A DNA stretch of 64,000 bases from Dolichospermum sp. ST_sed8 (GTDB taxonomy: Bacteria; Cyanobacteriota; Cyanobacteriia; Cyanobacteriales; Nostocaceae). Below, one piece after another: positions 24,827-27,117 of this stretch. Under the pieces are notes generated by a model, which was given only the letters and a program-made list of their open reading frames with translations, ran no database searches and had not been told where the DNA came from. The stretch is taken from NCBI GenBank assembly GCA_028658405.1, contig JAKOGY010000003.1, positions 1 to 64,000 of the forward strand, given 5' to 3'. A program made the translations under genes and the position numbers. Position 1 is the first letter of the stretch. Each line of letters opens with the position of its first letter.

Positions 24827-26377
24827 ATGGAATCTCTAGACATAAAATGGATACGCGCCCAGTTTCCCGCACTGACACAAACAATCAACGAAAAACCAGC
24901 GATTTTCTTTGATGGACCCGGTGGAACACAAGTACCCGGTGGAGTATTAGACGCAATTAGTGATTATTTAGTTAGATCAAATGCTAATGCTCACGGTGTT
25001 TTTGCTACGAGTATGCGAACAGATGCCTTGATTATTTCTGCTAGGGCTGCGATCGCCGACTTCCTAGGATGCGATAATGATGAAGTAGTATTTGGCGCAA
25101 ATATGACCACCCTCACCTTCTCCGTGAGTCGCGCTATCGGGAGAGAATTACAACCAGGTGATGAAATCATTGTCACAAACTTAGACCACGCAGCCAATAT
25201 TTCCCCCTGGTATGCATTAGAAGAAAAAGGTGTAATTATTCGTCCTGTTGATATCAATATTACCAACTGTACATTAGATTTAAAAGATTTAGAACAGAAG
25301 ATAAATTCTCGGACAAAATTAGTCGCAGTCACCTATGCTTCTAACGCCGTCGGCACAATTAATGATATTACCAAAATAACAAAACTAGCCCATAATGTCG
25401 GGGCTTTAGTATATGTTGATGCAGTCCATTATGCTCCCCATGCACCGATTAATGTTCATCATTTAGACTGTGATTTTCTAGCCTGTTCCGCTTATAAATT
25501 CTTTGCTCCTCATGTCGGAATTCTCTACGGAAAAAAAGAACATTTAGCCAGATTTTCGCCTTATAAAGTTAAACCCGCCTCAGAAGAAGTTCCTTCCAGA
25601 TGGGAAACAGGAACTTTAAATCATGAAGGTTTAGCCGGATTAGTAGCAGCAATTAATTATTTAGCAAAATTAGGTTGTCATGTTTCCCCAACCTTAGATA
25701 ATGAATTACTTTCCTCTTTAATGGAAGCCGATAAAGAAGGCTTAACAACCTTCCATTGTCCGCGATTTCTGACAGAAACAGCACAACCAAACCATGAACT
25801 AGCATCAGCTTATCATAGTCGTCGAGCTGCTTTAGTTGCAGCAATGTCAGCCATTCAACAATATGAAAGAGAATTAAGTAAAAAGCTGATTTCAGGATTG
25901 CTAAAAATCCCTGGTTTAACCTTATATGGAATTACCGAACCCAGCCAATTTACATGGCGTACACCCACAGTATCTATCCGCATAGAAGGAAAAACACCAG
26001 CAACCATAGCAACCATATTAGGAGAAAAGGGAATATTTGCTTGGTACGGAAATTTCTATCCCACATTCCGCACCCTGGGGTGTCACATAGTATTATCACT
26101 TGATTTTCTCTTGATTTTTGGATACAAATTATGCCTCGTCGGCATCATGTATCCGTTAATTCATTGAGATTCGATATATAATACATCCTCATTTCATCAT
26201 AAAAAACAGTAAAAACCGATTGTGACAGTTGAGGGTGCGGAAGATAGGTTCTATGCAATTAACCTCACCGAAAAATTAGACGTAGAAACATCTGGTGGCT
26301 TATTGAGAATTGGTTTAGCCCATTACAACACAGTTGAAGAAATTGATCAACTCTTGCAAGCCTTGAATGAAATTTAA
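24827..26377 (+). pseudogene. Cysteine desulfurase-like PLP enzyme gene, interrupted by a 189-bp element
   Basis: The gene encodes an aminotransferase class V protein of the cysteine desulfurase-like type. Motifs: IFFDGPGGTQVPGGVLDAI near residue 25, VFGANMTTLTFSVSRAIG, VYVDAVHYAPHAPINV and the Schiff-base region LACSAYKFFAPHVGILYG. After codon 411 (Tyr of GNFY) an insertion at 26060-26248 adds 36 foreign codons and a TGA at 26165-26167. The lost tail (AINLTEKLDV...LLQALNEI, 40 residues, stop 26375-26377) is intact beyond it and in frame once the insert and one TTCTAT copy are removed. The truncated 446-residue product lacks the end of the small domain and is probably inactive. Confidence 0.88.
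26060..26248. mobile_element. 189-bp miniature inverted-repeat element inserted in a gene
   Basis: Its ends match over 21 of 28 positions as inverted repeats. The shared cores are TTCCGCACCCT and TGTCACA (left from 26060, right ending 26248). It is flanked by a direct 6-bp duplication TTCTAT at 26054-26059 and 26249-26254. A central hairpin (ggataca...atgcc/ggcat...tgtatcc, 26120-26154) is visible. No transposase is encoded. Which IS family mobilised it is not determined. Confidence 0.85.
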
Positions 26378-26388
26378 AAAAACTCTAC

Positions 26389-26422
26389 CAGATCCCCGAC
26401 TTCTTAAAGAAGTCGGGGATCT
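26389..26422. repeat. Palindromic repeat AGATCCCCGACTTCTT
   Basis: This is the same palindrome as at 1513-1545, arms agatccccgacttctt and complement, placed just after the original end of the desulfurase-like gene. It may act as that gene's terminator. Confidence 0.65.
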
Positions 26423-26643: not shown

Positions 26644-27117
26644 TTAGTCTCCCATAAGTTCATAAGGTGTACAGATTGTTGGTAATTCATATCCAGATTG
26701 AATACTAATTTGTGAGAGTTTTTTCTGTATTTGTGCATTAGCAATATGTTTACAGTTCCATGTTAACAAATAATCTACTTTATAAATAGTAGCTAAGGCA
26801 ATATGTAAGGCATCATCAGATGCTTTAGGAGGAAGATTGCTTTTTGTGAGAAATTGCTGGGCTAATTCTTCCACTGTTTCGTTGAGTTCTAGTAATGGTA
26901 ATTCATTGATTAGATCAAGTCGTTTAGTAGCTATTTCTTGATCTCCTCTGGCTAATTCCTCTAAAACTACTTCAGAGATATATAGAGTAAAATTTTGCCG
27001 TCGAGTATCCCACCAACTCTGTGTAATTACTGAATTTGAGGCAGTTATTAGATTAGTGCTTGGTCTAATTGTCAGATAGCCAATAATACTGGTGTCAAGA
27101 TAGAGACTTTCAATCAT
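26644..27117 (-). CDS. PIN-domain protein (VapC-like toxin)
   Basis: This 157-aa PIN-domain putative RNase has the conserved acidic residues in SLYLDTSIIGYL (Asp near residue 8), SEVVLEELARGD (Glu) and ASDDALHIALATIYKVDYLLTWN (the paired Asp and the later Trp-Asn position usual in this subgroup). Such proteins are generally ribonucleases in VapBC-type toxin-antitoxin pairs. A 53-aa gene follows with 2 bp between stop and start. Confidence 0.8.
   Translation of the reverse strand: MIESLYLDTSIIGYLTIRPSTNLITASNSVITQSWWDTRRQNFTLYISEVVLEELARGDQEIATKRLDLINELPLLELNETVEELAQQFLTKSNLPPKASDDALHIALATIYKVDYLLTWNCKHIANAQIQKKLSQISIQSGYELPTICTPYELMGD

Follow-up and report, generated by a model that had tools for sequence, protein, structure and literature searches.

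A 189-bp miniature inverted-repeat element with IS1634-type ends interrupts a cysteine desulfurase-like gene in Dolichospermum sp. ST_sed8

The first 64,000 nucleotides of contig JAKOGY010000003.1 of Dolichospermum sp. ST_sed8 (assembly GCA_028658405.1, forward strand), referred to here as the window, contain a cysteine desulfurase-like gene that is interrupted close to its 3' end by an insert of 189 base pairs (bp), which raises the question of what the insert is, how it reached the gene and whether the enzyme has survived its arrival. A preliminary description, made from the DNA alone, had proposed a recently inserted miniature element between duplicated TTCTAT sequences, with the gene likely inactive unless the element excises. 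Our overall reading, to which we assign a probability of roughly 0.9, is that the insert is a non-autonomous miniature inverted-repeat transposable element (MITE), that it was most likely moved by a transposase of the IS1634 family, and that the gene is probably non-functional. The features of the locus are collected in Table 1.

Table 1 Features of the interrupted gene and its insert (positions in the window)
Feature	Coordinates	Strand	Evidence or remark
5' part of interrupted cysteine desulfurase-like gene, 411 codons	24827..26059	+	TIGR01976, Aminotran_5, orthologues
Target-site duplication, left copy TTCTAT	26054..26059	.	single copy of site in relatives
189-bp MITE	26060..26248	+	22 full-length copies read across four genomes, all between direct repeats of their own
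Left terminal inverted repeat CCCACATTCCGCACCCTGGGGTGTCACA	26060..26087	+	
Central stem-loop (GGATACA...ATGCC-TCGTC-GGCAT...TGTATCC)	26120..26154	.	
Element-supplied stop codon, after 35 element-encoded residues	26165..26167	+	
Right terminal inverted repeat, reading CCTATCTTCCGCACCCTCAACTGTCACA on the - strand	26221..26248	-	
Target-site duplication, right copy TTCTAT	26249..26254		
Displaced 3' end of host gene, 40 codons and stop	26255..26377	+	conserved in orthologues

Both TTCTAT copies of the preliminary description were recovered, with exactly 189 bp between them, and so were its imperfect inverted ends and central cruciform. The ends share the arrangement TTCCGCACCCT-N4-TGTCACA, which is read at 26066-26087 on the plus strand and at 26221-26242 on the minus strand. 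The central structure consists of an outer stem pairing GGATACA (26120-26126) with TGTATCC (26148-26154) and an inner stem pairing ATGCC (26131-26135) with GGCAT (26141-26145), and the element strand folds far better than shuffled versions of itself (z = -4.7, with none of 200 shuffles as good). Stop codons are present in all six frames and no transposase gene is encoded; the same stops rule out an in-frame translatable repeat.

The same DNA is repeated in the genome of ST_sed8 and in those of its relatives. Five full copies are found in the own genome (three 100% identical, two at 98-99%), together with five further copies that each end at a contig end, and full-length copies in relatives amount to 17, with 13 in the nearest relative (genome G011), three in G004 and one in G008. 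Direct repeats were read for 22 full copies in these four same-genus genomes, the listing for G011 being possibly incomplete, and every copy is flanked by such repeats, which measure 6 bp in 19 cases; of the other three, one has 7 bp and two have 5 bp. The target pattern is N-T-N-N-A-W, with T at position 2 in 20 of the 22 and A at position 5 in 19, and the A+T content of the repeats is 89% versus 63% in the window. No site common to the five own-genome copies and the G011 copies was found among the 13 listed. Being short and multicopy, with inverted ends, duplications of constant length and empty sites (see below), the 189-bp insert is a MITE. Since most of its other copies fall outside long reading frames, the insertion in a long gene at 26060-26248 is an exception. 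Less similar relatives of the element are found in other members of the order. A survey of species-representative genomes places the 22-base end in Anabaena sp. FACHB-1237, Nostoc sp. CHAB 5836, Dolichospermum sp. LEGE 00240, Anabaena catenula FACHB-362, Microseira wollei and a Scytonema metagenome-assembled genome, and full elements, where present, show 72-98% identity.

The product of the host gene scores 418 bits against the NCBIfam model TIGR01976, above the curated cut-off of 352, and matches Pfam Aminotran_5 at 9e-67, indicating the class V aminotransferase fold. By these matches the gene is a member of the TIGR01976 cysteine desulfurase-like family, which has the status 'hypothetical equivalog', with the desulfurase activity itself predicted. 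FGM3 is a solved relative of the protein, and the SufS relatives are more distant. Orthologues with 90-98% protein identity are found in 14 of the 15 same-genus genomes searched, and because the fifteenth (G005) holds only distant relatives, the gene appears to be dispensable within the genus. When position 26059 is joined to 26255, an open frame of 451 amino acids running through GNFY-AINLTEKL is obtained, and the frame is restored by removal of the insert and one TTCTAT just as had been claimed. The joined flanks align without interruption to the 14 same-genus orthologues, with identities of 86.6-99.3% over about 277-286 bp (99.3% over 286 bp for the nearest empty site), and to more distant family members at 70-73%. 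These empty sites carry one target copy in place of the insert, which is found in none of the 14 orthologues, and the C-terminus is open in all of them. A second occupied site in the own genome (L002) likewise has an unoccupied counterpart in G011, where ATAAAT stands only once, and no counterpart of the flanks of another copy (L004) was found in G011, leaving that site uninformative.

It is against these empty sites that two rival explanations of the locus have to be weighed. The 189 bp could have belonged to the ancestral gene as an in-frame extension and have been lost in relatives, and the insert plus one repeat does amount to a multiple of three (195 bp, or 65 codons). However, the extension brings a stop codon and has stops in all six frames, neither the 14 orthologues nor the more distant family members contain it, and the same DNA recurs at sites that have nothing to do with this gene, in different flanks and between repeats of its own. 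The empty sites refute such an extension, and we give it practically no credence. A misjoin of two contig pieces through a repeat is conceivable in a draft of 532 contigs, where other copies of the MITE do break contigs. Yet the flanks are adjacent and in the same order in the 14 relatives, and an exact duplication of a single site, which a misjoin would not yield, brackets the element, so that misassembly too was rejected on the empty sites and has a negligible probability.

The alternative to both, a MITE insertion in the lineage of ST_sed8, also fits the condition of the gene. Because the site is empty in the 14 orthologues, the nearest at 99.3%, the insertion is younger than the split from the nearest relative, G011, whose coding region is 96.7% identical at the DNA level. 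The changes in the host gene that could be assigned to the lineage comprise 8 synonymous and 3 non-synonymous ones, too few for a selection test, and no further stop or frameshift was found in the gene. The few changes and the lack of further damage are consistent with a young lesion. In these respects the preliminary description, which had called the insertion recent and had seen no other damage in the gene, is borne out, and neither of the two outcomes that it had named as refuting was observed.

An observation on the intact gene of G011 may be added here. At locus L196 (G011:C1:3181000-3188000) it is the opposite, 5' end of the desulfurase-like gene that has been disturbed: a second copy of its first ~95 codons (about 300 bp) stands about 1.2 kb upstream of the intact one, which begins MN-ESL and not M-ESL. 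An unrelated 327-codon frame on the opposite strand lies between the two, and its resemblance to an Rpn/DUF4351-type nuclease is by eye only.

What does the insertion do to the enzyme? The frame opening at 24827 enters the insert and ends at 26165-26167, confirming that the added 195 bp is in frame yet stop-containing. The predicted product is a chimera of 446 amino acids in which 35 element residues would replace the conserved last 40. The preliminary description had left it to be checked whether these 40 residues have a counterpart at the C-terminus of the family, and they do: they are conserved as the C-terminus of the orthologues, where GG(L/F)LRIG(L/I)AHYNT is nearly invariant, and they align with the C-terminus of the solved cysteine desulfurases FGM3 and SufS, the nearly invariant segment aligning with ARASFYLYNTEEEID of SufS. 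In SufS-type enzymes the substrate carboxylate is bound by an arginine of this C-terminal segment. Given that what was lost is conserved and includes this arginine, the interrupted gene is probably non-functional and the enzyme activity would be lost.

We now turn to the enzyme that may have moved the MITE. The preliminary description had suggested a search for a full-length parent with the same ends, and elements of 2.2-2.3 kb bounded by CCCACATTCCGCACCC...TGTCACA are indeed found in four genomes of the same genus whose assemblies consist of one or two contigs. The full-length elements encode proteins of 552-572 amino acids, and the two that were tested scored 398 and 416 bits against the NF033559 model (IS1634 family transposase; cut-off 100). 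Clean 6-bp repeats (TTAATA, ATAGAA, ATAAAT, TTACAC, ATTTAA, ATGAAA and ATATTA) flank seven of the insertion sequences (IS) that were read, and these seven are L130, L133, L136, L137, L138, L171 and L172; no clean pair was seen at L132, L134 and L139. The outer 16 bp of the MITE and of the IS1634-family ends are identical, and the terminal 22-34 bp of the MITE are 85-95% identical to the IS ends; element positions 150-183 (34 bp) reach 94% identity with one end of the element at L133 in G007. The MITE resembles the IS1634-family elements of the genus (L136 and L138 in G011, L171 and L172 in G004, L137 in G007) in its CCCACATTCCGCACCC ends, its TGTCACA block and the mostly 6-bp AT-rich duplications, and differs from these elements of about 2.2-2.3 kb in having none of their interior. 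Shortened IS copies of 957, 1628 and 1765 bp (L139, L132 and L133) show a path from IS to short derivative. ISAsp5 in Anabaena sp. 90 may be compared with these elements. From the shared ends, an IS1634-family element is likely to be the parent of the MITE, and mobilization in trans by an IS1634 transposase is likewise likely. With a match to the IS at its termini only, the MITE would, by the wording of a review (PMC10969869), stand nearer to type II than to type I, in which the interior derives from the IS.

On this basis, the most likely course of events is that an IS1634-family transposase, with its gene at some other site in the cell, recognized the MITE ends and either excised the element from a previous locus or copied it there. 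Staggered cutting of an AT-rich NTNNAW sequence, in this case TTCTAT, would have opened a 6-bp target to which the MITE was joined, and repair of the gaps would have produced the two copies of TTCTAT.

Two points weigh against this derivation. Beyond the terminal 22-34 bp, no similarity was found between the MITE interior and the IS bodies. An IS1634-family transposase gene was not found in the 532-contig draft, where a search by protein returned two weak fragments and a search by family model nothing. The presence of the parent in the source strain therefore depends on repeats that are not assembled. In favor of that presence, both ends of the intact G004 element (L171/L172) occur in the own genome, at 6 and 8 places (14 in total), and nearly all of these places are no more than about 70 bases from a contig end. 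Because IS ends that adjoin contig ends are what is expected of an unassembled repeat, the missing IS body may be explained in this way. Apart from this question, one IS1634-family element in G004 (L131, G004:C1:2144500-2148400) is itself interrupted by a nested DDE_Tnp_1 insertion sequence with a 399-residue transposase, making a 3.6-kb unit.

The restriction of the likeness to the ends and the lack of an assembled IS1634 transposase would suit a MITE moved by some other transposase, and three DDE_Tnp_1 matches in the own genome may be candidates. It is improbable, however, that such an enzyme would act on ends that share their outer 16 bp and TGTCACA block with the IS1634 elements of four genomes of the genus, when most IS1634 copies read have 6-bp AT-rich repeats like those of the MITE and the ends of an IS1634-type element are present in the own genome. 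The probable loss of function can also be questioned, as the 446-residue chimera keeps its pyridoxal phosphate-binding core and might tolerate the element tail. Loss of a nearly invariant motif that aligns with ARASFYLYNTEEEID and contains the arginine known to bind the substrate carboxylate argues against a working enzyme, despite a core (residues 1-411) that is intact and little changed and despite the case of a sulfate-binding protein gene in Microcystis, where transcription continues across a 187-nt MITE located close to the 3' end (PMC11448079). We consider a working chimera unlikely, if marginally less so than another transposase. Excision that restores the gene is possible in principle. 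Routine precise excision would not be expected of an IS of this kind, which moves by cut-and-paste. It would be a very long shot that the insertion is polymorphic among the chromosome copies or filaments of a polyploid host, with the MITE serving as a slow on/off switch through transposase-driven precise excision.

Gene-disrupting MITEs are already known in Anabaena sp. 90 and Microcystis, and what is added here is a MITE family with IS1634-type ends together with an exactly defined lineage-specific insertion. Anabaena sp. strain 90 has 147 MITEs of 77-541 bp with terminal inverted repeats and strong secondary structure, 15 of which lie inside disrupted genes and have turned them into pseudogenes (PMC3542288). 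The present family is like them in being short, with inverted ends and strong secondary structure, and gene-disrupting in a bloom-forming host; it differs from their published description, which gives them no matching IS (PMC3542288), in sharing its ends with same-genus IS1634-family elements. The 187-nt MITE of Microcystis aeruginosa PCC 7806 (PMC11448079) is of nearly equal size, multicopy and stem-loop forming, also lies close to the 3' end of a coding gene and is presumed to be mobilized in trans by the transposase of an IS whose ends match, but its ends (GGCTCTTCG) and 8-bp repeats match the ISL3 family and the sequences are unrelated. Inactivation of the mcy cluster by a MITE in Baltic Anabaena, as cited in the review PMC10969869, is a case of natural gene inactivation in the same cyanobacterial group, affecting another gene. 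The locus offers a precisely datable gene loss through a MITE, and the tie between a MITE family of bloom-forming Nostocales and a named IS family makes the mobilizing enzyme testable; otherwise it represents ordinary insertional mutagenesis in genomes rich in mobile elements.

The own genome also harbors a second and more abundant MITE family of about 170 bp with the ends CCCACATTCCGCACCCCCCGGTGTCACA and CCCATCTTCCGCACCCTAAACTGTCACA, and its shorter variants, about 133 and 107 bp long, have the same outer ends. About 24 places were matched (L012-L030 and others, for example G000:C529:8118-8272 and C5:13813-13967). In the window itself, a perfect palindrome (ATCCCCGACTTCTTAAAGAAGTCGGGGAT) at 26393-26421, 3' of the displaced gene end, is probably a repeated cyanobacterial palindrome or a terminator, and just 3' of the interrupted gene a frame of 157 amino acids on the minus strand (26644-27117) resembles, by eye only, a PIN-domain (VapC-like) protein.
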